A DNA stretch of 64,000 nt from the NCBI RefSeq assembly GCF_003023845.1, contig NZ_PYFT01000001.1, positions 2,976,001 through 3,040,000 of the forward strand. Reading direction: 5' to 3'. Shown one piece after another: positions 8,468-34,647 of the stretch (positions within the stretch are counted from its first letter, which is position 1; every line of letters begins with the position of its first letter). Made by a program: the position numbers and the translations under genes. This DNA is from Adhaeribacter arboris. Lineage in GTDB: Bacteria > Bacteroidota > Bacteroidia > Cytophagales > Hymenobacteraceae. Under the pieces are notes generated by a model, which was not told where the DNA came from, did no database searches, and was given only the letters and a program-made list of their open reading frames with translations.

Positions 8468-9781
8468 TCAATTGCCGTAGCCGGGATTTTGAGTTAAAGA
8501 AGGATCCGCTAAAATTTCACCCGCTGGAATCGGGAAGATGTATTTATTCGGATCGTTCAGGTTATAAACCGCCGGAGCCCGGCCAGTTCTCACAATATCA
8601 AACCAGCGGTGCGGCTCCAAAGCAAATTCTACCCGACGTTCGTTCTCTATGGCTAGTAAAATTTCTTCGGGAGTAAGGGCGGTACTGGTAGGCACATTGG
8701 CGCGAGCCCGCACGGCGTTCAAATCGCTTAATGCACCAGCTACATCCGGATTCGCTTTTTTCACGCGGGCTTCGGCTCTTATTAAGTATAATTCGGCCGT
8801 CCGGATGCCATAAGCCGCAGAGGTATTCGTGGGGTAGATACCGCCAATAAATTGGCCTAAGGCATTTTGCACGGATAATATTTTCCGGTCGCCGCCTACA
8901 TTTGAGTCATTTAACAAGTTATGCAGCTCGGCTTTAGGTTCTAATTGGCGGTTGCTGGTGTTCCATAAGCCATAACCGGTATTTAAATCGGTAACACTGT
9001 ATGAAAACTCCAGCACTGACTCAGTGGTACCGGCGGCCAGGTTAAAGGGCTTTACAAGTTGATAATTGGTATTCGCTAAAATACTGTTGGCGTCATTTTC
9101 GGCGGCTTCAAAGTTATTTTGGTAGAGGTGCAAACGCGCCCGGAGCGCATAAACCGTGAATTTGGTAGCCCGGTTCCGAACCACCGTGGCGGGCAGGAAA
9201 GTTTCGGCTTGATTTAAATCGGCTAGTACCTGGGCGTACACCTCGGCTTGCGAGCTTTTAGGTACTCCCAGTTTATCGGCTACTACTTTGGTGGGCGTCA
9301 GGAAAACTTGAACGTTGCCGAATACCCGGGCCAAATCGAAATACGAGTACGCCCGGATGAAATAAGCTTCGCCCAGAAGCTGGTTTTTCAAATCAGGGGT
9401 GAGTTTTACATCATTCACCAAAGGCACCTTTTCGATGACGTGGTTAGCCCGGTTAATGGTATTGTAAAAGTTGGCCCAGTACGTTGATAAAAACCCGATA
9501 TCCGAACGTAAATCATAGTTTATGACATTTAAGTCGGTTTGGGCATTGTTTAACGACCGAACATCGCCGCCCGATTGCAGAATGGTATTCTGAAAACCAC
9601 TGCTGTAGTTTAAACTAGCCAAAGAACGGTAAGCGCCTCGTACGGCAGTTTCGGCGGAGGCTTTGTCGAAGATGGTATTTTCGTCGGATACTTTGTCGTA
9701 AGACTCTACATCCAGATAATTTTCGCAGGAGGATAGCAAGATGCTTACGAAAAGCACCGGCCAGATAAGTAGCTTCTTCAT
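8468..9781 (-). CDS. SusD/RagB family surface lipoprotein (operon A)
   Basis: The 437-residue protein has a lipoprotein signal ending in L-L-S-S-C (Cys19), followed by E-N-Y-L-D-V-E-S, typical of SusD proteins. Also visible are AETAVRGAYRSL, the TPR region with LLGEAYFIRAYSYFDLARVFG (about 135-155), TKFTVYALRARLHLYQ, and the C-terminal signature A-I-E-N-E-R-R-V-E-F-A-L-E-P-H-R-W-F-D. SusD proteins cap SusC pores and bind the substrate at the cell surface. It lies 12 bp after susC. No glycosidase is nearby, so the ligand need not be a glycan. Confidence 0.93.
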   Translation of the reverse strand: MKKLLIWPVLFVSILLSSCENYLDVESYDKVSDENTIFDKASAETAVRGAYRSLASLNYSSGFQNTILQSGGDVRSLNNAQTDLNVINYDLRSDIGFLSTYWANFYNTINRANHVIEKVPLVNDVKLTPDLKNQLLGEAYFIRAYSYFDLARVFGNVQVFLTPTKVVADKLGVPKSSQAEVYAQVLADLNQAETFLPATVVRNRATKFTVYALRARLHLYQNNFEAAENDANSILANTNYQLVKPFNLAAGTTESVLEFSYSVTDLNTGYGLWNTSNRQLEPKAELHNLLNDSNVGGDRKILSVQNALGQFIGGIYPTNTSAAYGIRTAELYLIRAEARVKKANPDVAGALSDLNAVRARANVPTSTALTPEEILLAIENERRVEFALEPHRWFDIVRTGRAPAVYNLNDPNKYIFPIPAGEILADPSLTQNPGYGN

Positions 9782-9793: not shown

Positions 9794-12700
9794 TTAAAAA
9801 GTAAGGTTCGCACCAAATTGAAGTCCGCAGGGTTGCGGTGGCGTAGCGGTATCTAAACCATCCAGGTTTTGCCCCGCGCTACCCGAGGATTCGGGGTCAG
9901 CTCCGGTATATTTGGTAGCAATCCAGAGGTTGGTGCCTAAGGCGTACAGCCTTACTTTATTTAACTTTAAGCGATTGGTTAAACTTGGCGGCAAGGTGTA
10001 GCCCAACGTAACAGTTTTTACTCTTACAAAAGAGGCATCTTCCAGGTAGCGGCTGTTTTGCTCCATGTTGTAGTTATTGCCCACGCTTGTTACCCGCGGG
10101 GTATTGGTAATATCACCCGGTTTCTGCCAGCGGTCTAGTTGGCTTTTCAGAATAGAACGGGAAGCATCGCGGGTACCGCCGCCTTCCAGGATGTATTTAT
10201 TAAAGTTAAAAACCGAGTTGCCGTACTGGTAGGTGAGTAAAACGTTTAAATCAAATCCCTTGAAAGAAAAACTGTTGGTAAAGCCGCCGTAGAATTTCGG
10301 AATTAAATTACCTAATAATTGCCGGTCGGCCTGGGTAAGTTTGCCGTCTTTATCTACATCATCAAATACCGCATTTCCGGTTTCCGGGTCAACGTACAAT
10401 TGTTTATATAACCAGAAACTGCCCAGAGCGGCGCCTTCCTGGGTGCGGCGGTATTCGCGGGCTTCGAAGGTGATGGGGCTCACCAGCTTTTCGGCGCGGT
10501 TTACGTTGCGGGCAAAGTTAAAATTAGACGTCCAGCTAAAGCCGTTGCCCTGGTTTTGGATGTTTATCGTAGAAATGCCGAGTTCAATCCCTTTATTGCT
10601 TACCTCCCCGGCATTAGCCAGAGTACTGCCGTAACCCGTAGACGAAGGTACCGGCAGGTAAAGTAGAGCATCGGTGGTATATTTATAGTAGGCATCCACA
10701 TTCACGAGCAAGCGGTTGTCGAATAATCCTACATCTAAACCAGCGTTATAGGTGGTGGTTTTTTCCCATTTTAAATCCGGGTTTTCGAGCTGCGAGGGAG
10801 CAATACCCGGCTTAGGGCCACTGGTTAAATTATCCGGGTACTGGGCAATGCCCGTCCATAAGCCGCGGGAAGCGTAATCGTTAATGCCGTTTTGATTACC
10901 CGCCGAACCGGCACTCACCCGCAGCTTTAATTCGGTTAACTGGTTTAAATCCTGCAGAAAATTTTCTTGTTTCAGGCGCCACGAAGCCCCAATTCCCGGA
11001 AAATATCCCCAGCGGTTATTTACGCCAAACTTGGAAGAACCATCGGCCCGCAGGGAGCCTTCCAGAAAGTATTTATCCGCAAAACTATAATTAATCCGGC
11101 CGAAAAAAGAAGAAATGGTAGACTTTGATTTTCGTTGCTCCGAAGTACGAATTGAAGCCGCCGATATTTGCTGAAAAGAATTATTGGGAAATCCAGACCC
11201 GGTTTGCGCTGCTAACTCCTGCGTCGTGCTTTGAGTACTGTTACCCAACAAAACGGTAATAGCGTGTTTAGTGCCTAAGTCTAAATTATAAGTTAAAGTC
11301 TGCTCATTTTGCAGTAAGGTTAAATTGGTAAAAACCTCGTTCACGTACCCCGGCGGATTGGGCGCTCCCCCAATAATGGTTTGGTCGTTAAAGAACTCGC
11401 GTTCGTTGTAATGGTTATAATCCAGGCCCACCGAAGTTTTAAAGCGAAGCCCCGGCAAAATGGCCACTTCCACAAATTGGTTACCAATGTAGCGGATGCT
11501 GCGGGTAGAAATATTGGTAATATCGGTATTGGTTAAATTATCGATGTTTTCGTAAATGGACCCCCGGGCGGGTGTCCCATCCGGATTGGTGAGCGGCAAA
11601 TAAGTGGGATGATGCAGCGCGGCCAGTAAATGCCCGGCTTGTTGGCCGGCCCCGCCCCTTACCTGCTGCCGGAACGAACGGTAAGCCCCATTACTGGAAC
11701 TAAAGGTTATTTTTTTGCTTAGTTTGGTATCCAGGTTAAGTTTAAAACTAGCCCGTTCAAATTTGGCCGGTTTTAATATTCCTTCCTGATTCGTATAACC
11801 AGCGCCTAAATTGTACCGGATATTTTCGCTGCCGCCCTGAATGTTTAAATCGTAATTTTTAGTTTGCGCCGTCCGGAAAACCCGGCTCATGCGGTCGAAG
11901 GTTTGCTGTTCTTCGGGAGTGCCGCGACCCGGTACGCCATTAATTACTTCTTCTTTTGGGCGGAAAGGCCGGTTAGCGTAGGTTTGATTTAAACTGGGCT
12001 TATCAATGCCGGAATTTATCCATTGCTCGTTCACGAGTAAAGCGTGTTCCGGACCGGTAGTTAATTCCCATAACCGGCTTTTATCGGCTTGTTGCCATCC
12101 CTGCGAAACATCCAAGCTATATCGGGTTTTACCGGCATTATACTCGCCCCGCTTGGTAGTCACTAAAATAACGCCGTTTGCTCCCCGCGACCCGTAAATG
12201 GCAATGGCACTGGCATCTTTCAATACTTCAATGCTTTCAATATCGGCGGGGTTGATATCGGCTAGCGGAGAAGTTTTTTTATTTCCCAGGTCAATGGAAG
12301 CCAACGAGTTATTATTAACCAGTACCCCATCAATCACATACAAGGGATCATTACTGGCATTAATGGAAGCGGTTCCCCGAATTTGAACTTTCACGCCTTC
12401 GCCGGGAGTTCCGGAAAACGTATTCACCTGGATACCTGCCGCTTTGCCCTGGAGTTGGGCATCGAAACTAGCTACCGGGGTTTGTTTGGTTTCGGCGGGG
12501 TTTATGGTAGTAATGGCACCTACCAGGCTTTTCCGGCTCTGGGTTCCGTAGCCTACCACCACCACTTCGTTTAAAGCCTTGGTATCTTCCTGTAAGGTTA
12601 TTTGGAAATTACTTTGGTTTTTAATTGGAATTTCTTTGGCAACGTAGCCAATAATTGAGAAAACCAGTACATCAGAAGGATTTGGAACCGTTAGTTGGAA

Positions 12701-12949
12701 GGAACCATCAGTAGCAGTAGTAGTACCTATATTTGTATTTTTAACCAGCACTGAAACCCCGATTAAGGGTTCGCCGGCTTCCGTTACTACTTTACCGGAA
12801 ATAGTTTCTGTAAAGGAAAACTTTGGTTTTAAAACTCTTTTCGTTTTAGCAAGTGGAGGAAAAAAATTGGCTGTAGCCGCTAAAGAAGTAGATTCATAAA
12901 GTGCCAGCAATAGCAATAACTTACTACTCTTTTGTAGTAGTTTTTTCAT
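9794..12949 (-). CDS. SusC/RagA family TonB-linked outer-membrane transporter (operon A)
   Basis: The product has 1051 residues. A signal peptide (1-25) is followed by a carboxypeptidase-regulatory-like domain (about 48-135: ISGKVVTEAGEPLIGVSVLV). Then come the SusC motif A-L-N-E-V-V-V-V-G-Y-G (about 137), a plug domain with D-I-E-S-I-E-V-L-K-D-A-S and Y-G-S-R-G-A-N-G-V, and a long beta-barrel ending in a terminal Phe. It imports a ligand bound by the adjacent SusD using TonB energy. A TACTTTTG box at 13349-13356 on the minus strand could be its promoter, implying a long leader that covers the hairpin at 12985-13032. Confidence 0.95.
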   Translation of the reverse strand: MKKLLQKSSKLLLLLALYESTSLAATANFFPPLAKTKRVLKPKFSFTETISGKVVTEAGEPLIGVSVLVKNTNIGTTTATDGSFQLTVPNPSDVLVFSIIGYVAKEIPIKNQSNFQITLQEDTKALNEVVVVGYGTQSRKSLVGAITTINPAETKQTPVASFDAQLQGKAAGIQVNTFSGTPGEGVKVQIRGTASINASNDPLYVIDGVLVNNNSLASIDLGNKKTSPLADINPADIESIEVLKDASAIAIYGSRGANGVILVTTKRGEYNAGKTRYSLDVSQGWQQADKSRLWELTTGPEHALLVNEQWINSGIDKPSLNQTYANRPFRPKEEVINGVPGRGTPEEQQTFDRMSRVFRTAQTKNYDLNIQGGSENIRYNLGAGYTNQEGILKPAKFERASFKLNLDTKLSKKITFSSSNGAYRSFRQQVRGGAGQQAGHLLAALHHPTYLPLTNPDGTPARGSIYENIDNLTNTDITNISTRSIRYIGNQFVEVAILPGLRFKTSVGLDYNHYNEREFFNDQTIIGGAPNPPGYVNEVFTNLTLLQNEQTLTYNLDLGTKHAITVLLGNSTQSTTQELAAQTGSGFPNNSFQQISAASIRTSEQRKSKSTISSFFGRINYSFADKYFLEGSLRADGSSKFGVNNRWGYFPGIGASWRLKQENFLQDLNQLTELKLRVSAGSAGNQNGINDYASRGLWTGIAQYPDNLTSGPKPGIAPSQLENPDLKWEKTTTYNAGLDVGLFDNRLLVNVDAYYKYTTDALLYLPVPSSTGYGSTLANAGEVSNKGIELGISTINIQNQGNGFSWTSNFNFARNVNRAEKLVSPITFEAREYRRTQEGAALGSFWLYKQLYVDPETGNAVFDDVDKDGKLTQADRQLLGNLIPKFYGGFTNSFSFKGFDLNVLLTYQYGNSVFNFNKYILEGGGTRDASRSILKSQLDRWQKPGDITNTPRVTSVGNNYNMEQNSRYLEDASFVRVKTVTLGYTLPPSLTNRLKLNKVRLYALGTNLWIATKYTGADPESSGSAGQNLDGLDTATPPQPCGLQFGANLTF

Positions 12950-12957: not shown

Positions 12958-12965
12958 TATTTTTG
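12958..12965 (+). promoter_or_regulatory. TAnnTTTG -7 box for a divergent RNA before susC A
   Basis: TATTTTTG matches the Bacteroidota -7 consensus TAnnTTTG on the plus strand. It starts 9 bp beyond the susC start codon. A TTTG at 12931-12934 lies 23 nt upstream and could serve as the -33 element. The same box occurs at the same distance from the other susC (34360-34367). Confidence 0.5.
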
Positions 12966-12971
12966 GGTTAA

Positions 12972-13040
12972 CAATTATTTACCGGCTTTCCCGATTCTTT
13001 GCCTGGTCCAGAGGCGTTGCAGTCGGGAAAGCTATTTTTT
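12972..13040 (+). ncRNA. Putative antisense small RNA of susC A, ending in an intrinsic terminator
   Basis: From a plausible start near 12972 the plus strand would give an RNA of about 70 nt. It holds a perfect 10-bp stem (GCTTTCCCGA 12985-12994, TCGGGAAAGC 13023-13032) and ends in TATTTTTT (13033-13040). The loop contains TGCCTGGTCCAGAGGCGTTG, which is shared with the unit before susC B. The RNA would be complementary to the 5' untranslated region of the susC mRNA. Cis-antisense RNAs of this kind repress PUL operons in Bacteroides. Exact ends are estimates, and a hairpin acting in the susC leader is the alternative. Confidence 0.55.
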
Positions 13041-19364: not shown

Positions 19365-19414
19365 CTTCAGGAGGAAACTATTTGGCTACGAAGCAGAATA
19401 GTTTCCTCCTGAAG
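19365..19414. terminator. Bidirectional hairpin between convergent genes
   Basis: CTTCAGGAGGAAACTAT (19365-19381) and its perfect complement (19398-19414) form a 17-bp stem with a 16-nt loop, between the HD gene and the convergent bshB1. An A/T-rich stretch follows. It probably serves both genes. Confidence 0.7.
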
Positions 19415-19493
19415 AACAAATATTTTAAATTTTTGAACTGCACTCAGCCTGATAAATCTTACAAAATTCCAAAATCACAGCCTAATATTTTGC

Positions 19494-20213: not shown

Positions 20214-20252
20214 AAAAGCGCTGCTTCTGCTTGCCCGGCAAGATACTCTTTT

Positions 20253-21503
20253 TTATTTATCCGGTTTGTTTAAAACCTGACCATCCCGTTGAATCAGCCA
20301 GGTAGTAATGGGGTTGAAATGGTAGCCGCCTTTGTTGTCGCCGCGGGCGGCAACTAATTGGCTAAAGGTGGGTTGGGTATAACCGGTTTCATCGACGGCC
20401 CGGCTCATGATTTCGGTTTCGTTGCCGTTCCATTGCCACAAATGCCGGAAATAGGTATGCGCTTTGTCCAGCACCGGGTCTTGCAATCGGGCCAATTGCC
20501 AGGTTTTGCCGGCGTCGGTACTTACTTCTACTTGGGTAATTTTGCCCCGACCGCTCCAGGCAATGCCGCGGATTTCCATCCAGCCTTTTTCGACCTGCAC
20601 CGGGTAAGCCGGGAAGGTAATGATGGAACGGGCATCCATATCGAAACTAAATTGCCGGATTTTGCCGTCTTTTACGGGTTCGGTGTATTTAGAAGTTTCT
20701 TCGCGCGTCATAAACGGCGCATCCGAAAACTCAATACGGCGCAACCATTTTACGCTGGTATTGCCTTCCCAACCGGGTAAAAACAAGCGGGCCGGATACC
20801 CTTGCTCCGGACGAATAGCTTCGCCGTTTTGGGAGTAAGCAATCATCCCGTCCTGTAAGCCTTTTTTTACCGGAATACTGCGGGTCATGACGGCAGCATC
20901 GGAACCTTCGGCCAAGAACCAGGTAGCATTGGGTTTTACGCCTACTTCCCGGAACAAGGTAGAAAGCAGCACGCCGGTCCATTCGCTTTGGCTGGTTAAA
21001 CCGGCAATTTCCTGGGGCGTTATTTTACCGGCCGGGTTACTCCGGAAATTGCCCGAACATTCTAAAAAGCAAATCCGCGAAAAAGCCGGGAACCGCTTTA
21101 AATCTTGTAAGGTGAATTTCATGGGCTTTTCCACCAATCCGTGAATATACAATTCGTACTCTTCCGGGTTAATGGTGGGCACACCGCCGTGGTGCCGTTC
21201 GTAATGCAAGTCGGCGGGCGTAATGGTGCCGTACAAATCCTGCAAAGGCGTGCGCGAGGACGTGTCGGAGGGTTTCCGGACCGGCTTTTCGTACCCCGAC
21301 CGGGTGCCTAATTCACTAGGCAAAGGCCCTTGTTTTTTAGTAGGATCATCTGGTATTACGGCGGCTTCCGGTATGGCCGCCTGCACGGTTTTCCCAACTG
21401 CAGTTTGTACCAATACTACCGCCGCAGTTGCCGCTCCGCCCAACAATTGCCGGCGACTCAGCGGTTTATGAAACAAAGGCGTATCTTCCGTTTCCGACTT
21501 CAC
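20253..21503 (-). CDS. SoxC-like molybdopterin sulfite dehydrogenase with Tat signal
   Basis: 416 residues. The N-terminus carries a twin-arginine signal (L-S-R-R-Q-L-L-G-G, residues 15-23) and an Ala-rich hydrophobic core. The sulfite oxidase domain holds the Mo-ligating Cys in F-L-E-C-S-G-N (about 146-152), H-H-G-G-V-P-T-I-N-P-E-E-Y and PGWEGNTSVKWLRRIE. The C-terminal dimerisation domain has Q-V-E-V-S-T-D-A-G-K-T-W. It should oxidise sulfite to sulfate in the periplasm and pass electrons to the cytochrome c encoded just upstream, as in the SoxCD pair. Confidence 0.9.
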   Translation of the reverse strand: MKSETEDTPLFHKPLSRRQLLGGAATAAVVLVQTAVGKTVQAAIPEAAVIPDDPTKKQGPLPSELGTRSGYEKPVRKPSDTSSRTPLQDLYGTITPADLHYERHHGGVPTINPEEYELYIHGLVEKPMKFTLQDLKRFPAFSRICFLECSGNFRSNPAGKITPQEIAGLTSQSEWTGVLLSTLFREVGVKPNATWFLAEGSDAAVMTRSIPVKKGLQDGMIAYSQNGEAIRPEQGYPARLFLPGWEGNTSVKWLRRIEFSDAPFMTREETSKYTEPVKDGKIRQFSFDMDARSIITFPAYPVQVEKGWMEIRGIAWSGRGKITQVEVSTDAGKTWQLARLQDPVLDKAHTYFRHLWQWNGNETEIMSRAVDETGYTQPTFSQLVAARGDNKGGYHFNPITTWLIQRDGQVLNKPDK

Positions 21504-21567
21504 TTTTATTATGTTTTTTAAATATTTTTAAATTTTCAGCTTGCTACAAACTTTGTAAGAGTTTGAT

Positions 21568-22215
21568 TTAACGAACTTCCGGACCACCTTTTCGGTCGTC
21601 GGGCACAAAAAGCTTTTGCGCCGGCATCACTACTTTGGGTAAAGTTTCGGCGTTCATGAAGGCTTCCGCGGGAATAATTTTATTCGCGTTGAGCAGAAAA
21701 GCCGTTAAGGCATACACTTCTTCGTTGGTTAAAGAACCGGGAGCGTTAAACGGCATGGCCCGGCGAATGTAGTCGAACAAGGTGGTGGCGTAAGGCCAGT
21801 AATTGCCAATAGTTTTTTCTTTATTATTCTCGGTTCCGGCAGCATCGGTTTCCACAACCGAAACCAGGCGGTTATTAGGTCCTTCCACTCCGGTTTTTCC
21901 GTGACACGCCGCACATTTCACGGCGTAAACGGCCTTACCGGCCAGTACCGTTCCGGAGCCGCCAGGTAATCCTTTGCCATCGGGCCGCACATCTATGTCC
22001 AATAAGGCTATTTCCTGAGCAGTGGCCGGTTTCCCAAAACCAAAGCTAGTCGGCCAATTTTCTGAATCAGCTTTTGTTACTTGGGTTGATGGAACAACAG
22101 CAGTGGCAGAAGATTTATTTGCTGTTGGGGAACGGGTACAGGCTGCTCCTAGCAAAATCAGTCCGGTTAAAAGCCAGTTGAAGCCCGAATTTTTTAAAAT
22201 TTTTAAATTTTTCAT
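21568..22215 (-). CDS. Cytochrome c lipoprotein, SoxD-like electron acceptor
   Basis: I choose the start at 22215 (MKNLKILKN), giving 215 residues, because it gives a clean lipoprotein signal (L-L-G-A-A-C, Cys about 22); the longer frame from 22332 would bury it. One heme motif C-A-A-C-H lies near residue 100. G-N-Y-W-P-Y-A-T-T-L-F-D-Y-I-R-R-A-M-P and L-T-N-E-E-V-Y-A-L match the SoxD cytochrome domain. It is immediately upstream of the SoxC-like gene (64 bp), so it should take electrons from sulfite oxidation. A frame at 21729-21914 is a shadow. Confidence 0.88.
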   Translation of the reverse strand: MKNLKILKNSGFNWLLTGLILLGAACTRSPTANKSSATAVVPSTQVTKADSENWPTSFGFGKPATAQEIALLDIDVRPDGKGLPGGSGTVLAGKAVYAVKCAACHGKTGVEGPNNRLVSVVETDAAGTENNKEKTIGNYWPYATTLFDYIRRAMPFNAPGSLTNEEVYALTAFLLNANKIIPAEAFMNAETLPKVVMPAQKLFVPDDRKGGPEVR

Positions 22216-22480
22216 TAACTGTTTAGGAGGATAGCTTGCTTTTATAACCAAGCTAGTTTTTAATACAATTTTCTGCTTTTCCGTGGTTAAATAATTGACG
22301 CTGCAAACATTAAGTTTCATCTTGAATATCACTTAGCTAAGTTTTCTGATATTATTTGCTTCGTCAACTCTTGATGTTCTCCTAATTCCAACTTATTTGT
22401 CGGATTTAAACAAACACAAGCCAGTAGCAGCCGTAACAAGAAGAGTGAATCATTTATTTTCCACTTAAAAGTTATAAGCC

Positions 22481-22654
22481 ATGACCAAAGGACACAATAA
22501 AGACATGCACGAGGATGAAAATACATCTCAAACAAACAAAGACAAAGGCCAAAGCACCAAGCTGAAACACTCCAAAAAAGACGACAGCCCGAACCAGGGC
22601 CGCCATGCCAACCCGGACCAAAGCGGTGGTACCAAAGGAGCCAACAGCATTTAA
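22481..22654 (+). CDS. Small, highly hydrophilic protein of 57 residues
   Basis: ATG at 22481 to TAA at 22654. The product is almost wholly charged or polar (Lys, Asp, Asn, Gln, Gly, His) with no hydrophobic core. It contains K-D-D-S-P-N-Q-G-R-H and ends in D-Q-S-G-G-T-K-G-A-N-S-I. The composition recalls small stress or desiccation-related hydrophilins, with a loose likeness to KGG-type stress proteins. It lies on the opposite strand to the sulfur genes, between the cytochrome and exporter genes. Codon use and the biased composition favour a real gene; function unknown. Confidence 0.6.
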   Translation: MTKGHNKDMHEDENTSQTNKDKGQSTKLKHSKKDDSPNQGRHANPDQSGGTKGANSI

Positions 22655-22745
22655 ATTTAAAAAATTTGTTTTAAACCCAAGAATCTAGTTTATTCTGGTT
22701 CTTGAGCTATTTTTAAATTATTTAAAGTTTTACAATCTTGGAGGT

Positions 22746-22886
22746 AGTCCCCCTTTGGAGGGGGTAGGGGGAGAATTTATATATTTGATAATTTAAAACA
22801 AGTTTTAATCCATGCAGCTTTCCAGAATAAGGCCTTTTATTGATCACGTTAATTTATCCTCCCCCTACCCCCTCCAAAGGGGGACT
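22746..22886. repeat. Inverted pair of the common CCCCCTTTGGAGGGGGTAGG repeat
   Basis: A 27-nt G/C-rich arm at 22746-22772 is repeated exactly in inverse at 22860-22886, with an 87-bp AT-rich spacer. Each arm is also partly self-complementary (CCCCCTTTGGAGGGGG). It lies between the 57-residue gene and the YeiH stop. Similar sequences are widespread in intergenic DNA of Bacteroidota. Confidence 0.75.
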
Positions 22887-22917
22887 TCTCTCCTGGATCA
22901 AAAATAAAAGTAAATTG

Positions 22918-24207
22918 TTACTTACCGCCGAATAAAACAAAAGCAATTACCAGCGTAATGAAAATGTTAAAAGTTTGCGCAATTAAAAAGGCGTAAAGCG
23001 GTTTCTTGCTTTGCTTGTTAAATAAATCAGCAAAATTGGTTTCCAGGCCAATGCTGGTGAAAGCCAAGGCAAACCACAAGCCTTGCAGGTTTTTTAAACT
23101 ATCTTTCACCTGAGCGGTAGTTTCGGGCGAGATGAAGAAAGAAAAAAGCAACGAAGCGCCAATAAAACCCAGTACAAACTTGGGAAAACGTTCCCAGATT
23201 ACCCCTAAAGTTGGCTTGCTGTTTTGCTCTTCTGAATTGGGATGTTTGGTATAGGTCCAGTAAACCGAAATAGCGAAAGCCGCTAAACCCAGCAATACGT
23301 TCTGCGAAAATTTTACAATCGTACTGATTTTTAGAGCCGTTTCGCCCACCAGCGTACCCGAAGCCACTACGGCTCCGGTAGTATCAATGCTGCCGCCTAA
23401 CCAGGCGCCGGTAACTTCCTGCGGAAAGTTAAAATACTGGGCTACGTACGGCATAAATAGCATCATCGGGATGGCCGTAATTAACACCATGGAAATCACG
23501 TAGGACAGCTTTTTGGAATCACCTTTAATCGCGCCGGAAGTAGCAATTGCCGCTGAAACCCCGCAAATAGAAACGGCGCTGGAAATCATCATGGTGAGTT
23601 CGTCGTCTACTTTCAATTTCTTGCAAGTCCAGTAAGCCAGATACCACACCGATACGACTACCAGCAAGGCCTGAATTAAACCTAAGGAACCCGCCTTTAG
23701 AATATCGGAGAAAATAACGCTGGTACCCAGCAGCACCAAACCAATTTTCACGAATAACTCTGTCGTTAGCGTAGACCGAAACCAATCGGGTAATTTGAAA
23801 AAGTTGCCGATGATCAAACCAATGGATAAACTAAAAATAACGGCTTCCAGGTTTAAGGCTTTTACCTGCTTGTTCCCAGCCAGAATTAAGGCCAGAATAG
23901 TTAGTACATAGACCACCGGAAAAACGAGCAAATACGATTTCAAGGGCTTACCAATCAGGGTGGCGCCCAACCCACCAATGGTAAATACCAGCAAAAACTG
24001 CAAAGCAATTAAGCCTAGGTTACTGGCATTTAAAACTTTAGCGGTTAATTCCGCAGGATTACTCCAGCCAAATACCGGCACCGGCAGCAAAAATCCAGCA
24101 ATGGCTAACAAAATGATTAATCCGCCTAAAATTACAACGGTCCAATCTTCCGAAACGGCAAACCGGGTTTTGGGCGGAGAAGTAACTGTTGCTTGGGTTG
24201 AAGACAT
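22918..24207 (-). CDS. YeiH/UPF0324 family putative sulfate exporter
   Basis: I place the start at 24207 (MSSTQATVT, 429 residues) because the promoter box at 24246-24253 would put the transcript start after the longer frame's ATG (24249). About ten to twelve membrane segments are visible. Family motifs include L-E-A-V-I-F-S-L-S-I-G-L-I-I-G-N, V-S-I-C-G-V-S-A-A-I-A and G-G-S-I-D-T-T-G-A-V-V-A-S-G (about 285). Members near sulfite-oxidising genes are thought to export sulfate; YeiH itself is unproven. Here it is next to the SoxC-like module, which supports that role. Confidence 0.88.
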   Translation of the reverse strand: MSSTQATVTSPPKTRFAVSEDWTVVILGGLIILLAIAGFLLPVPVFGWSNPAELTAKVLNASNLGLIALQFLLVFTIGGLGATLIGKPLKSYLLVFPVVYVLTILALILAGNKQVKALNLEAVIFSLSIGLIIGNFFKLPDWFRSTLTTELFVKIGLVLLGTSVIFSDILKAGSLGLIQALLVVVSVWYLAYWTCKKLKVDDELTMMISSAVSICGVSAAIATSGAIKGDSKKLSYVISMVLITAIPMMLFMPYVAQYFNFPQEVTGAWLGGSIDTTGAVVASGTLVGETALKISTIVKFSQNVLLGLAAFAISVYWTYTKHPNSEEQNSKPTLGVIWERFPKFVLGFIGASLLFSFFISPETTAQVKDSLKNLQGLWFALAFTSIGLETNFADLFNKQSKKPLYAFLIAQTFNIFITLVIAFVLFGGK

Positions 24208-24245
24208 AAATTTTAAATTTTCTTTTATGTATATAGATGTAGTAG

Positions 24246-24253
24246 ACAAATCT
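24246..24253 (-). promoter_or_regulatory. TAnnTTTG -7 box before the YeiH gene
   Basis: On the minus strand the sequence is TAGATTTG. It lies just upstream of the chosen start (24207) and overlaps the longer reading frame's ATG, which decides the start call. No clear -33 TTG was found at standard spacing. Confidence 0.4.
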
Positions 24254-26560: not shown

Positions 26561-28219
26561 CTAATACTTACCGGCTTCCAAAGTGCTTGCGGAAAGCGCG
26601 TATTGCTTATTGGCTTTATCCAGTACAATGTACACGGAGTTTTTCCGGTCGTCGGTGCCGGTTAAAATTACCCGGGAACCATCCGTGGTCGCGTATTTTA
26701 AAATCATGCGATTGCGTTTCTCGTTTTTAGGAGCATCGGCAAACTCGCGGTCGCGGCGGGTAGAAGCGGCTCTTTTATCAATTTTTGAATTTTCGTCGCC
26801 AATGTTGGCCAAAGCTTCTTTAGGTATCCAATTATCATCGTACACCGGCGCTGCTTCTTTTTTCTTCTGTTGTTTTTTTGCGTTATCCTGGCCACCATCG
26901 CCACCTACTCCGGCTACTTTGTTTCGGCGACCTTGGAACAGGAAATACTTATCCTGCAGGTATAACACCTGGTTCACCGTATCGGCCTGGTAGTGGAAAA
27001 TGCGTCGGCCGCCGCCCACCCCGGAAATTTCGAAGGTACGGTTAATATCGCGCATCGGGTCGCCGCCACCATTCGACAAATCTAATGGCAAAGGCCGGTT
27101 TACTTTATACGTCAGGGTGGTCCATTTCTCAAAGGTTACGTCTTGCCACCGCACCGAATCTTCCGGGGAGAAAGGCAGGACCTGATTGTTAATTCGGAAC
27201 TCCGTTACATGATACGTACCACGCAATTTCTTTACTCCTGCCGTTGAGGGCTGCTTATACGGGTCGTACAAAAAGTTAATGAGTTGCAAATAAAACAACA
27301 CTCCCAGAAATAAGACAATCACGGCAGTTTTTAAACCAATGCGGGTATATTTCTGCCAGGTTTGCGCGAAAGCGGGATAAAAATTAACCGGTACCGTAAA
27401 GCGCTCCTGAATGAGCAAGCGGTATATTTTCGGAATATCGTGTACCAGTAGAAAGGCCGCCAATAAGACAAAATAAGAGCTGTACACGTGCACGCCGCCA
27501 TCGTACGCAAAATTCACGTACACAATATCGCCCAGAGCGCCAAATAACAAGATAGCGCCCAGCGTAGTAGTTCTCCGGAAGAATAATAAAGTACCCGCAC
27601 TTACTTCTACTACGCCGGCAAAAATTTGGTACCAGGGCACAATGCCGATCGATAACCAGTAAATTTTTTGGGCAGTAAAATCACCCAGATTGGTTTCCAG
27701 CAAACCAAAAGAAGGATATGGCATTTGCACCGGTAGTAATTTGGTAAAACCAAACCCGATAATACCAATACCGGCCCGGTAGCGTACAATTACCCGCAGC
27801 CAGTAGTACAGTAAGTTGTAATTTTTAGGCGTCGGAATTCGCTTAGCATCTACCCAGGTCCAGATTAAGCCGCCCACTACGGCTACCAAAAAAGTAACAA
27901 TCCAGTTGGCATAGCCATTCAGCCGGCTACCAAATAAAGTATTGCCGAACAAATCAATGCCCGAGCCGAAACGGGCAATGTCGTATAAATCGCGGTAATG
28001 CAGGTTGGTCCAGTCCAGGTTAGCGACGTGCTTGTACCACTCTACACCGTTCGGAATGGAGAGGCAAACAAAAAAGATAAAGGCCACCCGGAAAATTACT
28101 TTCTGAGTTCTGGTCCATTCCGAGATTATCGGAGAATTCGATATGGTTCCAATCCCGTTACCCGTATCCGGGTTAGTCTGCCGGTTGGTAATAGGCTCGA
28201 TGGTTTCTATTGTAGCCAT
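26561..28219 (-). CDS. DoxX-like membrane protein with long insert (operon B, second copy)
   Basis: 552 residues, with the same architecture as the operon A proteins. R-Y-R-A-G-I-G-I-I-G-F-G-F-T-K-L-L-P-V-Q-M-P-Y-P (about 148) is followed by F-A-G-V-V-E-V-S-A-G-T-L-L-F-F-R-R-T-T-T-L-G and a soluble domain with Y-H-V-T-E-F, P-F-S-P-E-D-S-V-R-W-Q-D and V-Y-I-V-L-D-K-A-N-K-Q-Y. Between about 425 and 505 it carries a charged, Lys/Asp/Gly-rich insert not found in the others. It lies 36 bp after the previous doxX-like gene and ends operon B. Confidence 0.75.
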   Translation of the reverse strand: MATIETIEPITNRQTNPDTGNGIGTISNSPIISEWTRTQKVIFRVAFIFFVCLSIPNGVEWYKHVANLDWTNLHYRDLYDIARFGSGIDLFGNTLFGSRLNGYANWIVTFLVAVVGGLIWTWVDAKRIPTPKNYNLLYYWLRVIVRYRAGIGIIGFGFTKLLPVQMPYPSFGLLETNLGDFTAQKIYWLSIGIVPWYQIFAGVVEVSAGTLLFFRRTTTLGAILLFGALGDIVYVNFAYDGGVHVYSSYFVLLAAFLLVHDIPKIYRLLIQERFTVPVNFYPAFAQTWQKYTRIGLKTAVIVLFLGVLFYLQLINFLYDPYKQPSTAGVKKLRGTYHVTEFRINNQVLPFSPEDSVRWQDVTFEKWTTLTYKVNRPLPLDLSNGGGDPMRDINRTFEISGVGGGRRIFHYQADTVNQVLYLQDKYFLFQGRRNKVAGVGGDGGQDNAKKQQKKKEAAPVYDDNWIPKEALANIGDENSKIDKRAASTRRDREFADAPKNEKRNRMILKYATTDGSRVILTGTDDRKNSVYIVLDKANKQYALSASTLEAGKY

Positions 28220-28255
28220 GGTAATTTTTAAAAATTGTAAGGGGAATTTATCTAC

Positions 28256-29683
28256 TTATAACTTCATCGGTTTTTGGCGGCCTTCGCGGGCAACTTCATC
28301 CAGCAGGTATTTTTTATTTATTTTTTCCAGGACTACGTACACCAGCTCATTCTTCTCATTCAGACCCGACAAAATAATCTGGTTAGCATTTGGTCGCTCG
28401 TACTTCAAAGTTAATTTCTCGTTCTGCCGATTTTTGTTTTTGTTTTGCAGAATCAAAGTTTGATTAGCGGCATCGAACTGGTAAGAATAATACTGCCGAC
28501 CGCCGGAACCGGCTTCTTCGTAATTCCTTTCCTGGTCGTTCAGAAAAATTTCTTCGGTTTTGGCGTACTCTAATGGTGCTTGCTGGTTAGAGCGGATACT
28601 GATAGTAGCCCATTTTTCAAAAACTACATCCTGCCAGCGAATGGGGTCGGTAGCCGAATAAGGTAAAACCTGGTTATTAACCCGGAACTCTTTTACATTG
28701 TACAAGCCACTAGTATTCGGTAAGCCGGCAGTTTTCGGGAAGTGATAAGAGCCTTCTTTTTGGTAAACCGCGTATGTTTTATACCCATACAGCAATACAA
28801 ACACAAACACAAAGCTGCTTTTTAGCACCAAACGCGCACTTTTTTGCCAATCAGTAAATTTAGGATGAAAGCGGTTGGGCAGCGTAGGTTGCTCTAGCGT
28901 GAGTAAGGTAAAAAGCCGTTTGCCATCGTAAGCAAACAAATATAAGGCAATGGTAATCAGGTAAAAACTGTACACGTATTCGCCGCCCTCATAAGCCAAA
29001 TTCGACATAAACACGTTACCGGTAAAAGGTAATACCAGAAAAGCCCCAATGGAAGCGGTTTTGCGGAAAAATAACAAACCCGCCGCTAATAACTCCACCA
29101 AGCCTAAAAATGACTGGTAATCCGGCACAATACCTAAAGTAAGCGAAAATATTTTCCAGGCGTTGAAATCACCGTAATGCGTATTCAGGTTACTAATAGA
29201 AGGAATTGGCGCCTGCATCGGGTATATTTTAATGAAAGCATAGGCAATTAAACCAATGGCTAAGCGATAACGCAGAATAACCCGTACCCAATAATACAAT
29301 TGATTATATTCTTTTCGATTTCGGCCCACAAGCGACCATACCACTGCTCCTACCACCGCAATAGCCAAAACTATTCCCCAATCAGCAAAAGAGCCGATGC
29401 CCCAGCCACTGGTATTTTCCGGGGTAGAAAAAAACTGCGGCGTGTACCGGCTCAAATAAAATATATCCCGGAAATGTAAATCGAGCCAGTTAATGGAAAA
29501 CAGATTGCGAAAGTACTTCCAGTCGAGTGGTACCGCTTGTATAAAAAAATAAATAAAGAAAAAACGAAATGCTGCTTTCTCTAATTTATTCCAATCGGAA
29601 GATGGAACCGGAGGCTCTGGCACATTCACCTTTTCAAAGGCTTTCTTTTTAGAAACAGGTAACGAAATTTCTGCAGTAGCCAT
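28256..29683 (-). CDS. DoxX-like membrane protein with C-terminal soluble domain (operon B, first copy)
   Basis: 475 residues. Membrane segments are followed by R-Y-R-L-A-I-G-L-I-A-Y-A-F-I-K-I-Y-P-M-Q-A-P-I-P (about 135-155), S-F-L-G-L-V-E-L-L-A-A-G-L-L-F-F-R-K-T and a soluble domain (about 315-475) with L-Y-N-V-K-E-F, P-Y-S-A-T-D-P-I-R-W-Q-D and L-Q-N-K-N-K-N-R-Q-N-E-K. It is the positional counterpart of the gene at 6802-8214 and like it lacks the long insert. It is separated from susD B by a REP-like element. Confidence 0.75.
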   Translation of the reverse strand: MATAEISLPVSKKKAFEKVNVPEPPVPSSDWNKLEKAAFRFFFIYFFIQAVPLDWKYFRNLFSINWLDLHFRDIFYLSRYTPQFFSTPENTSGWGIGSFADWGIVLAIAVVGAVVWSLVGRNRKEYNQLYYWVRVILRYRLAIGLIAYAFIKIYPMQAPIPSISNLNTHYGDFNAWKIFSLTLGIVPDYQSFLGLVELLAAGLLFFRKTASIGAFLVLPFTGNVFMSNLAYEGGEYVYSFYLITIALYLFAYDGKRLFTLLTLEQPTLPNRFHPKFTDWQKSARLVLKSSFVFVFVLLYGYKTYAVYQKEGSYHFPKTAGLPNTSGLYNVKEFRVNNQVLPYSATDPIRWQDVVFEKWATISIRSNQQAPLEYAKTEEIFLNDQERNYEEAGSGGRQYYSYQFDAANQTLILQNKNKNRQNEKLTLKYERPNANQIILSGLNEKNELVYVVLEKINKKYLLDEVAREGRQKPMKL

Positions 29684-29869: not shown

Positions 29870-31219
29870 TTAATAACCCGGATTTTGTTCCAAAGCTTTG
29901 TCGGCATTTAGCTGGTCGATCGGGATGGGCAGCACATATTTATTCGCATCGGTCACTCCCAGAACTTCGGCCACGCGGCCGGTCCGGATTAAATCAAACC
30001 AGCGGTGTGGTTCAAAAGCAAATTCTACGCGGCGTTCGTTTTCAATGGCCAGCAATACTTCGGGTTGCGTAATGGCCGGACTAGGCGCTAAATCGGCGCG
30101 GCTGCGTACTGCGTTTAAATCCGCTAAGGCTTCCGGAAGTTTATTCAATTGAGCCCGGGCTTCGGCCCGGATTAAAAACAATTCGGCAATCCGGATGACG
30201 AAGGTAGGATCGGTAGCGGGGCTGCGGTAATACATGTTGCCGTACCACAATCCTTGCGCAGTTTTCGCGACTAAGGCGTTGCGGTTCCCTCCTACCGTGG
30301 GGTCATTTACCAAGTTTACAAAAGCATCGTTGGGCGCCCATTGCCGGGTACCGCCATTGGCGGGTGGTTGCCAGCTGTTGCGGTGCGTGTTGGTGGAAGT
30401 CGGGCTATAGTAAATTTCAAAAACAGATTCTTCGGTACCACGGGCATTGTTGGCGAAGAAAGCGCTGTAGGGTTTTACCAGTTTGTAATTCGCGGCGTCG
30501 TCCACTAGTTTGCTCGCGTAGGTTTCGGCTTGGGCCCAGTCTTTTTGATACAAATAATAACGCGCGAGTAAAGCCCAAGCCGTTTTTTTGGTGGCCCGGT
30601 AGCGGTTGGTCGTTTCGGATAATAGTTTTTCGGCCTCGGTTAAGTCTTTTAGAACCTGGGCGTAAGTTTCGGTTACCGAACTGCGGCGAATGCGCTCGTT
30701 GTCGGTGAGTTCTTTGGTGGGCGTGAGTACTAACTGTACACCACCCCAGGTACGCGCCAAATCGAAATAAGCCAAAGCCCGCACGAAGTAAGCTTCGCCT
30801 AATAACTGGTTCTTTTTCTCCTGGGTAAAAGTAGCATCCGTTACGGCCGGCACTTTTTCGATAATATGATTCGCGCGGTTGATGGTCTGGTAAATAGCGG
30901 CCCAGGTACTGGCTACCGTAGCATTATCGGCGGTTACGTTATGATTGATAAATTGCGCCACGATAGACTGCGAACCCGTCCATTGAATATTATCGCCCTG
31001 AAAATAACCGATGGATTGAAAATTGGTGCCGTAATAGTTTGCCCCCGCCAGCGCTCCGTATAAACCCCGCACGGCCGTTTCGGCGGTTACGCCATCCACA
31101 ATGGTTTGGTCGTCCACGATGGCTTGGCGCGGCTCTACTTCCAGGAAATTATCGCAGGAAGCTAAACTCAGGGTCAGCACGAAGGGCAGTATATATCTGG
31201 TATTTTTAAAAAATTTCAT
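29870..31219 (-). CDS. SusD/RagB family surface lipoprotein (operon B)
   Basis: 449 residues with lipobox S-L-A-S-C (about Cys22), then D-N-F-L-E-V-E-P-R-Q. The TPR motif LLGEAYFVRALAYFDLART, K-K-T-A-W-A-L-L-A-R-Y-Y-L-Y-Q and the C-terminal A-I-E-N-E-R-R-V-E-F-A-F-E-P-H-R-W-F-D-L are as in the operon A protein. The two are clearly paralogues along their whole length. It follows susC by 24 bp. Confidence 0.93.
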   Translation of the reverse strand: MKFFKNTRYILPFVLTLSLASCDNFLEVEPRQAIVDDQTIVDGVTAETAVRGLYGALAGANYYGTNFQSIGYFQGDNIQWTGSQSIVAQFINHNVTADNATVASTWAAIYQTINRANHIIEKVPAVTDATFTQEKKNQLLGEAYFVRALAYFDLARTWGGVQLVLTPTKELTDNERIRRSSVTETYAQVLKDLTEAEKLLSETTNRYRATKKTAWALLARYYLYQKDWAQAETYASKLVDDAANYKLVKPYSAFFANNARGTEESVFEIYYSPTSTNTHRNSWQPPANGGTRQWAPNDAFVNLVNDPTVGGNRNALVAKTAQGLWYGNMYYRSPATDPTFVIRIAELFLIRAEARAQLNKLPEALADLNAVRSRADLAPSPAITQPEVLLAIENERRVEFAFEPHRWFDLIRTGRVAEVLGVTDANKYVLPIPIDQLNADKALEQNPGY

Positions 31220-31243: not shown

Positions 31244-34200
31244 TTAAATGGTAATGTTAATTCCGAATTGAATGGTGCGCGGCTGCGGCGGCGTTCCCAG
31301 GTCAAGCCCTTGCGTATTCTGGTCGGTGTTGGTCACGTTCGACTCGGGATCCGGACCGGTGTATTTGGTGAGCAGGAACAAATTGCTACCCACTACGTAC
31401 AGGCGCAGATTGTCGACCTTAACCCGGGATAAAAGATTTTTGGGCAGCGAATACCCGAGGGTAAGCGAACGAAGGCGCAGGAACGAGCCATCTTCTAAAA
31501 AGCGGCTGTTTTGCTCTAAACGGTAATTGTTGCCGATGCCGGTTAAGCGGGGAACGTCGGTTTCGTCGCCGGGCTTTTGCCACCGGTCTAGCTGGCTGGC
31601 AAAAATTACCCGGTTGGCATCGCGGGTACCGCCACCTTCGCCGAAGAACCGGTTGTGGTTCCAGACTTTATTGCCGTATTGGAACGAAATCAGCACACCG
31701 GCATCAAAACCTTTGTAAGTAAAATTGTTGGTGAGTCCACCAAAGAACTTAGGCGATGCGGTACCTAAAATTTGGCGGTCGGCGACGGTGATCTGGCCGT
31801 CTTTGTTTACATCTTCGAACACCGCGTTGCCGGTTTGCGGATCTACGTACAGTTGTTTGTAGGCCCAGAAGGAATACATCGGGTAACCTTGCTGCGCCCG
31901 CAGTAAATCGCGGCTACCGTAAACGGTCGGGATGGGCAGTTTTTCAATTTTGTTGCTATTCCGGGCCAGGTTGAAATTGGTGTTCCAGGTAAAATCGCCG
32001 GCTTGAATGTTAACCGTGTTGAGGCCTAACTCAAAGCCTTTATTACTGATTTCGCCGGCGTTGGTAATGTAGGTCGAGAAACCGGTGCGGGCGGGTACGG
32101 GTAATTGTAACAAAGCGTCAGTAGTATATTTGGAATAGTAATTAAACTCCAGACCAATACGACCCTCGAACAAACCAACGTCTACCCCGGCGTTTACCTG
32201 GCGGGTCCGCTCCCACTTTAAGTTCGGGTTAGCCACTTGCTGCGGGGCAATGCCCGGTTTATCGCCGCTAGTCGCATTATCGACGTAACTGACGCCACCG
32301 GCCCAAAGACCCAGTGGGGCGAAATCGTTAATACCGTTTTGGTTACCGGTTACCCCGAAGCTACCCCGCATTTTTAAATCGCTCAGGGCCCTTACATTTT
32401 TCAGGAAATTTTCTTCTTTTAAGCGCCAGGCGCCACCAATCGACGGGAAGTAGCCCCATTTATTATTGCCCCCGAAGCGGGAAGAACCATCGGCCCGGAT
32501 CGTAAACTCCAACAAATATTTTTCATCAAAATTGTAATCCAACCGGGAGAAGAAAGAAGCCAGCGAATTTTTCGTCCAGGTTTGCGTAGAGGTACGGGTA
32601 GCTGCATCCGAAATTAGGGTAAACGAGTTACTCGCGAAGTTACTGCCTTGGGCCGAAGTATTATTCAACACATCGCTTTGCAAGGTATTCCCCACTAAAG
32701 CGCCAATGGTATGTTTACCGCCAAAGTTTTTGCGGTAAGTAAGGGTTTGCTCGTTCAGCCAGGAAGTTTTTTGGGTTAAGCCGGATGTGGCTAAACCATT
32801 AGTAGGAGCTGCGCCGAGCTGGGTTTTATCGTTCCAGTATTCCGATTCGTCGTAGTTATTATAATCTGCTCCCCAACTGCTCCGGAATTTTAAACCCGGA
32901 ATAATTTCGGCATCCACGAACAAGTTGCCAATGTACCGCAAGCTGGTAGAGTTTACGTCGTAGTTATTCAGGAGTACATCCAGGTTATCGAAACCGGCGT
33001 ACCGAGCCGGGCTGCCATCCGGGTTGTTCTTGGGCAGGTAAGTAGGCGTATGCAGCGCCGATTGCAATAAACCACCCTGCGGACCGTCGCCGGCGCGGGC
33101 CTGGTTGCGGTAAGTGCGCGACACGGTATTACTCACGCCTACTTGCACTTTGTCGTTTACCTGCTGGTCGATGTTTACTTTAAAGCTGGCGCGTTGCAGG
33201 TAAACGGGCTTAATGATAGCTTCTTGTTTGGTGTAACCGCCCCCGATGTAATATTTGGTATTGGCGTTGCCGCCCTGCAAAGATAAATCGTAGTTCGACA
33301 AGGTAGCCGTTCGGAATACATCGCCTAAACGATCGTACGTTTTTTGTTCTTCGGGCAAACCTCTGCCACCTTCGGCCACGGGCCGGAAAGGGCGGTTTTC
33401 AAAGGTTTGCTTTAAAGCCGGATTGTCCAGGCCGGTATTTATCCAATATTCGTTAATTAAAGCAGCGTGTTCCGGACCAGTGGTTAAATCCCAAAGTTTG
33501 GCGGCTTTGGCCCAGCCCTGCGAGGTGTTGAAGGTAACTTTAGGTTTGGTATTGTAGCTGCCGCGTTTGGTGGTAACAATTACTACCCCGTTGGCTCCCC
33601 GGGAACCGTAAATAGCGGTAGCATTGGCATCTTTCAACACTTCAATGCTCTCTATATCGGCGGGGTTAATATCCGCAATGGGAGAAGTAGCTTTACCACC
33701 GGTGTTTACCGTTTGTAAACTGGTGTTATTCACGAAAACCCCGTCAACTACGTACAGCGGGTCGTTGCTGGCGTTAATGGAAGTAGCGCCCCGCACCCGG
33801 ATAAAAATTCCCTCGCCGGGTACGCCGGTGCTCGACGTAATCTGCACACCGGAGGCTTTACCCTGCAACTGAGCCGCAAAGTTACCACCCGGTATGTCTT
33901 TGGTTTCGGAAGGGTTTACTTTACTAACCGAACCAACCAGGTTTTTGCGCTCCTGGCTACCATAACCAACTACCACTACCTCGTTCAGGGCTTTGGTATC
34001 TTCGGTTAAGGTAACCTGCACGGAGCCTTGGCCATTTACCGGAATTTCTTTAGTGGCATAACCAATAAACGAAGCCACCAAAGTACCCGAGCCATTCGGT
34101 ACGGTTAACTGAAAGGAACCATCGTTGCCGGTGGTAGTACCAATGGTAGTATTTTTTAAAACAATGGTTACGCCGGGTAATGGTTCGCCACCCGGACCGG

Positions 34201-34351
34201 TTACTTTTCCGGTAACCGACACGTCGGGCAGGTTTAATTTCCGGATAGTAAAACCAGCAGGAAGAGCGTAAAAAGAATTGGCTAGTAAAGGTGTTCCATA
34301 GAGTGTCAGCAATAAGAAGACTTTACTGCTACGGGAGAGCAGCTTTTTCAT
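31244..34351 (-). CDS. SusC/RagA family TonB-linked outer-membrane transporter (operon B)
   Basis: 1035 residues. A signal peptide (1-25) is followed by a carboxypeptidase-regulatory-like domain (VTGKVTGPGGEPLPGVTIVL, about 45-65), A-L-N-E-V-V-V-V-G-Y-G-S-Q-E-R, a plug with D-I-E-S-I-E-V-L-K-D-A-N-A-T-A-I-Y-G-S-R-G-A-N-G and a barrel that is colinear with SusC A. It imports a ligand with SusD B. The start is preceded by the conserved upstream unit on the opposite strand. Confidence 0.95.
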   Translation of the reverse strand: MKKLLSRSSKVFLLLTLYGTPLLANSFYALPAGFTIRKLNLPDVSVTGKVTGPGGEPLPGVTIVLKNTTIGTTTGNDGSFQLTVPNGSGTLVASFIGYATKEIPVNGQGSVQVTLTEDTKALNEVVVVGYGSQERKNLVGSVSKVNPSETKDIPGGNFAAQLQGKASGVQITSSTGVPGEGIFIRVRGATSINASNDPLYVVDGVFVNNTSLQTVNTGGKATSPIADINPADIESIEVLKDANATAIYGSRGANGVVIVTTKRGSYNTKPKVTFNTSQGWAKAAKLWDLTTGPEHAALINEYWINTGLDNPALKQTFENRPFRPVAEGGRGLPEEQKTYDRLGDVFRTATLSNYDLSLQGGNANTKYYIGGGYTKQEAIIKPVYLQRASFKVNIDQQVNDKVQVGVSNTVSRTYRNQARAGDGPQGGLLQSALHTPTYLPKNNPDGSPARYAGFDNLDVLLNNYDVNSTSLRYIGNLFVDAEIIPGLKFRSSWGADYNNYDESEYWNDKTQLGAAPTNGLATSGLTQKTSWLNEQTLTYRKNFGGKHTIGALVGNTLQSDVLNNTSAQGSNFASNSFTLISDAATRTSTQTWTKNSLASFFSRLDYNFDEKYLLEFTIRADGSSRFGGNNKWGYFPSIGGAWRLKEENFLKNVRALSDLKMRGSFGVTGNQNGINDFAPLGLWAGGVSYVDNATSGDKPGIAPQQVANPNLKWERTRQVNAGVDVGLFEGRIGLEFNYYSKYTTDALLQLPVPARTGFSTYITNAGEISNKGFELGLNTVNIQAGDFTWNTNFNLARNSNKIEKLPIPTVYGSRDLLRAQQGYPMYSFWAYKQLYVDPQTGNAVFEDVNKDGQITVADRQILGTASPKFFGGLTNNFTYKGFDAGVLISFQYGNKVWNHNRFFGEGGGTRDANRVIFASQLDRWQKPGDETDVPRLTGIGNNYRLEQNSRFLEDGSFLRLRSLTLGYSLPKNLLSRVKVDNLRLYVVGSNLFLLTKYTGPDPESNVTNTDQNTQGLDLGTPPQPRTIQFGINITI

Positions 34352-34359
34352 AAGTTTTG

Positions 34360-34367
34360 TATATTTG
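34360..34367 (+). promoter_or_regulatory. TAnnTTTG -7 box for a divergent RNA before susC B
   Basis: TATATTTG, a perfect match to the consensus, starts 9 bp beyond the susC B start codon, the same offset as the box before susC A. I see no good -33 TTG at 17-23 nt, so promoter strength is unclear. Confidence 0.5.
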
Positions 34368-34373
34368 GTTTAA

Positions 34374-34442
34374 CAATTAATTCTTGGACTTTCCCGGTAA
34401 TGCCTGGACCAGAGGCGTTGTAACCGGGGGAGTCCTTTTTTT
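34374..34442 (+). ncRNA. Putative antisense small RNA of susC B, ending in an intrinsic terminator
   Basis: About 70 nt from a plausible start near 34374. A 13-bp stem (GGACTTTCCCGGT 34386-34398, ACCGGGGGAGTCC 34423-34435) encloses TGCCTGGACCAGAGGCGTTG and is followed by seven T. Two pairs are T-G on this strand, so the stem is intact in the plus-strand RNA but would have two A-C mismatches in a minus-strand RNA. That supports transcription on the plus strand, antisense to the susC leader. Ends are estimates. Confidence 0.58.
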
Positions 34443-34503: not shown

Positions 34504-34647
34504 CTACGCTTCAGCGGTTTTGCCATTATCTAGTACTGGAATCGGCATCATCTCTTCATCTATTGGTGGACGAAGCCCAAAGAAGCTGGCTTTTTTGTGT
34601 AAAAGGACCAGTAAGCTTAAGAATAAAGTTAGGCTGATAATATCCAT
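34504..34647 (-). CDS. Possible small membrane protein of 47 residues
   Basis: ATG at 34647, stop TAG at 34504. The product has one hydrophobic helix (I-I-S-L-T-L-F-L-S-L-L-V-L-L) followed by H-K-K-A-S-F-F-G and a short acidic tail with P-P-I-D-E-E-M-M-P. Shape and positive-inside pattern fit a small inner-membrane protein. There is no clear ribosome-binding site and no recognised family. It lies upstream of susC B on the same strand and has no counterpart before susC A. Confidence 0.35.
   Translation of the reverse strand: MDIISLTLFLSLLVLLHKKASFFGLRPPIDEEMMPIPVLDNGKTAEA

Follow-up and report, generated by a model that had tools for sequence, protein, structure and literature searches.

Two susCD operons lie on the minus strand of the window (the whole stretch of 64,000 nucleotides of Adhaeribacter arboris DNA that was analysed), and a short plus-strand unit stands upstream of each susC gene (Table 1). 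Unit B opens with the TATATTTG box, which is separated by an A/T-rich stretch from a terminator-like hairpin with a 13-bp outer stem, and unit A has the same order. Behind each susCD pair lie two probable membrane-protein genes with no clear Pfam family (5252-8403 and 26561-29683, minus strand); between operons A and B their identities are 50% and 40%. The region between the operons (16724-24249) encodes sulfur-related functions, namely a sodium:sulfate symporter, a molybdopterin oxidoreductase with a cytochrome c gene, and a YeiH-type exporter; the neighbouring proteins indicate no clear substrate for the transporters. A 47-codon frame for a small membrane-like protein lies upstream of susC B (34504-34647, minus strand) and has related frames in L011, L012 and L013. 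An ~80-base block ~350-430 nt upstream of susC A (13297-13376, minus strand) is kept in four A-type loci (L020-L023), contains TACTTTTG on the sense strand, and is possibly the susC promoter.

Table 1. The two upstream units and their susCD genes, in window coordinates.
Feature	Coordinates	Strand	Sequence or parts	Remarks
Unit B	34360-34442	+	box, hairpin, T-tract	upstream of susC B
-7 box of unit B	34360..34367	+	TATATTTG	sigma-A-type; putative promoter element
Predicted antisense sRNA B	34372..34442	+	~71 nt	from covariation and strand bias; start placed by the box at -12 to -5, end by the T-tract
Terminator-like hairpin B	34386..34435	+	outer stem 34386-34398/34423-34435 (13 bp); apical stem 34399-34405/34413-34419; loop 34406-34412 (7 nt)	
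Apical core of unit B	34403..34415	+	CCTGGACCAGAGG	conserved; pattern CCTG[GT][AT]CCAGAGG
T-tract of unit B	34436..34442	+	TTTTTTT	directly 3' of hairpin
susC B leader	34352..34442	-		from sequence; predicted sRNA would cover about -21 to -91
susC B	31244..34351	-	SusC/RagA TonB-linked outer membrane protein	TIGR04056, 879.6 bits
susD B	29870..31219	-		PF14322, PF07980
Unit A	12958..13040	+	box 12958-12965; stem 12984-12995/13022-13033; core 13002-13014; T-tract 13035-13040	
susC A	9794..12949	-		PF00593, PF07715, PF13715; 58% identical to susC B
susD A	8468..9781	-		

The initial annotation had described the unit before susC B as a second copy of an upstream unit, and a unit was indeed found at that place. 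As it had stated, the offset from the gene is equal in A and B, with both boxes beginning 9 bases past the last base of the start codon on the plus strand (34349-34351 for susC B), and the loop cores differ by a single base (A versus B, TGCCTGG[T/A]CCAGAGGCGTTG). The comparison of A with B also bears out that the stems differ in sequence yet still pair through compensatory changes, and that both copies end in T-tracts on the plus strand. The two T-G pairs singled out in that annotation are T34391-G34430 and T34392-G34429 in the 13-bp stem of B, and a third plus-strand wobble pair, T34401-G34417, lies in the apical stem. When up to three mismatches were allowed, the 29-base loop region of B matched only itself in the window (0.00 expected), and copy A differs from it at more than three positions. 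Predicted plus-strand folds reach -32.8 kcal/mol for B (z -5.80) and -28.3 kcal/mol for A (z -4.89), and the corresponding z scores on the minus strand are -3.40 and -2.30.

Other repeats surround the units. Early susC codons contain an inverted repeat (34326-34342 in B, codons 4-9) that reads CTACT..AGTAG in A-type and CTGCT..AGCAG in B-type genes, with synonymous compensatory changes; it shows sense-strand G-U pairs in L021, L022 and L149, is followed by a T-tract on the plus strand, and also occurs in L164 and L193, both of which carry no antisense unit. Beyond unit A, at 13045-13072, lies a second inverted repeat, TTACCGGC..GC[CT]GGTAA, shared by the A-type loci L021-L023 and L014 (imperfect in L022, L023 and L014). 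An alternative pairing at unit A is possible because the TTACCGGC arm recurs at 12979-12986, just ahead of the unit A stem. A conserved GCATAGGCA block stands further upstream at A-type loci.

Thirteen copies of the unit were found in total, each before a susC-type gene: three in the A. arboris genome, seven in four congeners, and three in one Pontibacter, a genus of the same family, Hymenobacteraceae. The third A. arboris copy (C) is located at G000:C1:6123330-6123412 on the minus strand. A search model built from four B-type copies (R1) recovered the three own-genome copies and the seven in G003, G004, G005 and G007 among 120 family genomes. A second model of 11 rows (R2), one row being the Pontibacter copy L033, returned the same copies plus three in G200 among 204 family genomes. 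One of the G200 copies is identical to L033 and hence was already in R2 (L033 and L145 of G200 are the same unit, counted once), while L149 and L152 were absent from the model. Because L033 comes from Pontibacter qinzhouensis, this identity makes G200 that species or a very near relative. Unit-bearing genomes thus number 6 of 204 in the family, five of them among the eight of the genus. Outside Hymenobacteraceae, R2 gave no core-bearing match in 390 genomes of the order and 395 of the phylum (some overlapping the family set), searches in which diverged relatives may be missed because stricter filters were applied. A degenerate-pattern scan of the collection yielded at least 119 loci, all scored with R2; among those listed, one was real (L033), one more reached E 0.24, and 117 gave nothing at E ≤1. 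Eighteen weak model matches beyond the 13 copies were dropped, since the core is absent from them even with two mismatches and most resemble plain terminators, as was a genus pattern-search match (L003) at which the unit is absent. Two congener loci (L146 in G001 and L150 in G005) hold ordinary-looking terminators whose outer stem is very like that of the unit.

Each of the 13 copies stands before a susC-type start codon at a nearly constant offset. In 12 of them this gene matches the susC B protein, and the remaining copy (L149) precedes a SusC frame identified by TIGR04056 (470.4 bits over 499 available residues). The reverse does not hold. The best susC B relatives in the family were examined at 30 loci; six of these carry the hairpin, the core and the box, and the core is missing from the other 24, which argues that the unit is not a general feature of susC genes. 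One of these 24 core-less loci (L193) has a susC 68% identical to B; three have a TAnnTTTG nearby, and only in L212 is it upstream of the called start. Applied to 51 further susC loci, R2 gave only four matches, of 14-18 bits.

The 13 copies were aligned to the structure (alignment A6), and 92.9% of the 252 cells are paired. Both sides change at 12 of 20 pairs (36 of 252 cells), at one pair all four Watson-Crick combinations occur, and an earlier alignment of 10 copies had double changes at 11 of 20 pairs. The covariation score of A6 was 0.462, compared with a mean of 0.217 over the shuffles, and none of 500 shuffles scored as high; this figure is not a probability, because the copies share descent and the structure guided their alignment, which tilts A6 towards it. 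The number of further pair types was equalled by 8 of 500 shuffles, and such counts overstate independence because the copies are kin. When the structure was slid out of register, the score fell to 0.029-0.139. Maintenance of the hairpin, as judged from this covariation, is well supported.

Where one strand forms a G-U pair, the opposite strand has an A-C mismatch, and the two strands can therefore be told apart by their wobble pairs. Read on the plus strand, the alignment contains 209 Watson-Crick cells, 25 G-U cells (10 pairs), 4 A-C cells (3 pairs), 14 other mismatches and 8 gaps, with the A-C cells at or beside the ends of the outer stem. Tallied by clade, this amounts to ~15 G-U versus 3 A-C events (one-sided binomial 0.004), and by pair columns to 10 versus 3 (0.046). 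The plus-strand fold is more stable than the minus-strand fold in 12 of the 13 copies, with a mean difference of -6.7 kcal/mol; the exception, L152, is slightly better on the minus strand (-29.9 versus -29.3 kcal/mol). Because of the G-U/A-C asymmetry and this folding bias, the selected RNA is most likely the plus-strand, antisense one, as the initial annotation had claimed. The outcomes that it had named as refuting were looked for in the 13 copies, where covariation was strong and favoured the plus strand; neither support for the minus strand nor lack of covariation was seen. Strand and structure of the predicted RNA are both well supported.

In Flavobacterium, TAnnTTTG is described as the -7 box for sigma A, located at -12 to -5 (PMC9723704). 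This box begins ~26 nt before the stem and precedes the hairpin in 12 of the 13 copies (L023 is one base short), and a run of at least five T follows the hairpin in all 13. Both signals are compatible with a plus-strand transcript, which in unit B would start near 34372 and would be ~71 nt long. A TTG/TTTG (-33 element) 17-22 nt before the box was found in 0 of the 13 copies. Box and hairpin were also compared across the susC genes of A. arboris. The susC B protein search gave 57 match rows there, some of them pieces of one gene; 30 loci were taken, four with an unclear start (L165, L175, L177 and L186) were dropped, and the statistics rest on the 26 individually examined loci that were left. 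All three hairpin-bearing susC genes have an antisense box in the 60 nt before the start, and the 23 without the hairpin have none there (3.8e-4 by counting, though the three genes are related). Antisense terminators of -28.1 to -32.8 kcal/mol occur at exactly these three of the 26 genes. The next best, at L164, reaches -13.8 kcal/mol; the susC there shares the N-terminus MKKLLPKSSK, and its weak terminator is perhaps a relic of the unit. On the sense strand, the 400 nt before susC A, B and C of A. arboris contain no TAnnTTTG, which is present at 7 of the 23 others.

Taking together the anatomy, conservation, covariation, strand bias and box co-occurrence observed, we consider it probable that the unit is the gene of an antisense sRNA of ~71 nt, with a DonS-like layout, that represses susC; transcription, ends, pairing and repression of this candidate are what we infer. 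Plus-strand transcription would begin at a sigma-A-type promoter, with the -7 box placed 9 bases away from the start codon of susC. The product would have a 5' tail that stays unpaired, followed by a single long hairpin and T-tract that act as its own terminator. If the sense start site lies upstream of the hairpin, the susC transcript would cross the unit, and the sRNA would be fully complementary to its leader at about -21 to -91. The tail and the exposed loop would most likely make the first contact, and a duplex would form just upstream of the start codon. The computed duplex with the cognate leader is ~-143 kcal/mol, compared with -68 to -86 kcal/mol for the other two leaders of the genome (internal structure ignored). 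Expression of susC(D) would then drop, via translation or mRNA stability, as with DonS. Repression is not certain, because antisense-PUL pairs with positive correlation are reported too (PMC10994844).

The apical loop bears on how such an RNA would act. The pattern CCTG[GT][AT]CCAGAGG is present in all 13 copies while the outer stems vary by compensation, and the apical hairpin is better kept than the outer stem both among copies A, B and C (identity 0.84 versus 0.53, the latter too low because row C is shifted there) and among the three G200 copies (0.92 versus 0.81). A cis-antisense RNA need not conserve its loop sequence, because its target changes along with it, and one reason for a fixed loop is a shared partner, another is recent duplication. 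Constancy of the core despite drift of the stems hints at the former, and it is conceivable, though rather unlikely, that these are paralogous antisense RNAs that each repress their own susC in cis and whose fixed loop is read by one shared partner, either an RNA-binding protein or, through cross-talk, the paralogous transporters. Loop-loop kissing of RNAs A and B was rejected as a candidate; their 9-base loops are complementary in A. arboris and G003 but not in G004 and G007. The same constancy would suit a plus-strand RNA that acts mainly in trans, via loop and tail, on another mRNA, on paralogous susC leaders or on a protein, with its place opposite susC being secondary, and the computed duplexes with non-cognate leaders are in keeping with this. 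However, a core-pattern search of G200, G164 and the eight genus members, ten genomes in all, returned only 16 sites, the 13 units and three unrelated reading frames, with no second conserved core site (a reversed control pattern gave one site), and each copy stays opposite a susC leader at a near-constant offset; we hold action mainly in trans to be doubtful. If the hairpin were a mere plus-strand terminator that halts antisense transcription emerging from susC, and no distinct small RNA were made, then the long stem, the T-tract and the missing -33 element would be expected, but termination needs no invariant loop, 23 of the 26 susC genes of the genome have no comparable hairpin, and the constant -7 box ahead of the stem is absent at those 23 starts, which makes this account unlikely.

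Readings that place the function elsewhere than in a plus-strand RNA fit less well. A riboswitch, thermometer or attenuator in the sense-strand susC leader would be in line with the folding of the minus strand (-23.2 kcal/mol for B and -20.9 kcal/mol for A), but these folds are the weaker ones in 12 of the 13 copies, neither wobble pattern nor fold favours the minus strand across the 13, the T-tract lies on the plus strand, and no Rfam family matches; a sense leader is thus very improbable. Invertible susC promoters are known in Bacteroides, and an inverted repeat upstream of susC with a near-palindromic apical core might likewise be a DNA feature, whether an operator site for a regulator, a mobile repeat or the two arms of an invertible promoter. 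Yet the orientation to susC is constant in all 13 copies, core-bearing copies were found solely before susC, the spacer in B is only 24 bp, and the arms retain G-U pairs, which break DNA symmetry, so that we give a DNA feature hardly any credence.

If the antisense sRNA reading is correct, a family in Hymenobacteraceae would put antisense control of susC in another branch of the phylum, and its presence at 3 of the 26 susC genes examined in A. arboris would mean selective use. The natural pairs of susC genes with and without the unit could be used to test the contribution of the RNA, and the comparison made here illustrates that comparative data can indicate the strand of an antisense RNA ahead of RNA-seq. 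No published description of the unit was found in a literature search judged by titles and the beginnings of abstracts, and no Rfam family reaches its gathering score at the units, a tRNA being the only match in the window.

Among RNAs with a described role at susC, FopS (RF04319) comprises paralogous sRNAs of ~65-70 nt with an unpaired 5' part and a terminator hairpin, which act on susC mRNA (PMC11697453). The predicted unit RNA is likewise paralogous and of similar length and build, and it would be directed at susC, but FopS use a 5' seed that acts close to mRNA start codons, unit B scores 13.3 bits against a gathering cut-off of 56, and no FopS was found in the A. arboris genome. Antisense RNAs of the CopA/CopT type, which control plasmid copy number, consist of a long hairpin with an exposed loop and are fully complementary to the leader. 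The unit RNA would share these traits, but it is chromosomal, would have a transporter gene as its target, and would use its terminator as the recognition hairpin. The closest layout is that of the DonS-like PUL-associated cis-antisense RNAs of Bacteroides, which are 78-128 nt long and lie opposite and divergent to a susC homologue (PMC7366714, PMC10994844). Repression of the cognate susC locus is reported there for DonS of Bacteroides fragilis (originally Cao et al. 2016), the one demonstrated case of antisense repression of a SusC locus that these sources describe, and 52% of the cis-antisense RNAs of B. thetaiotaomicron have an assigned sigma-ABfr promoter (PMC7366714). In all 13 copies the unit is antisense and divergent to the 5' end of susC, as in this class, in which a sigma-A promoter is common but not universal; the unit has the -7 box in 12 of 13 copies and the -33 element in none. 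It differs in the shorter predicted RNA (~71 nt), in its single terminator-like hairpin with a conserved loop, and in its host family, Hymenobacteraceae. The likeness drawn here is one of described layout, and R2 found no core-bearing relatives in a phylum sample that may or may not include a DonS-bearing Bacteroides. Because its layout matches that of PUL-associated antisense RNAs, we file the unit as a putative new RNA family of this known class.
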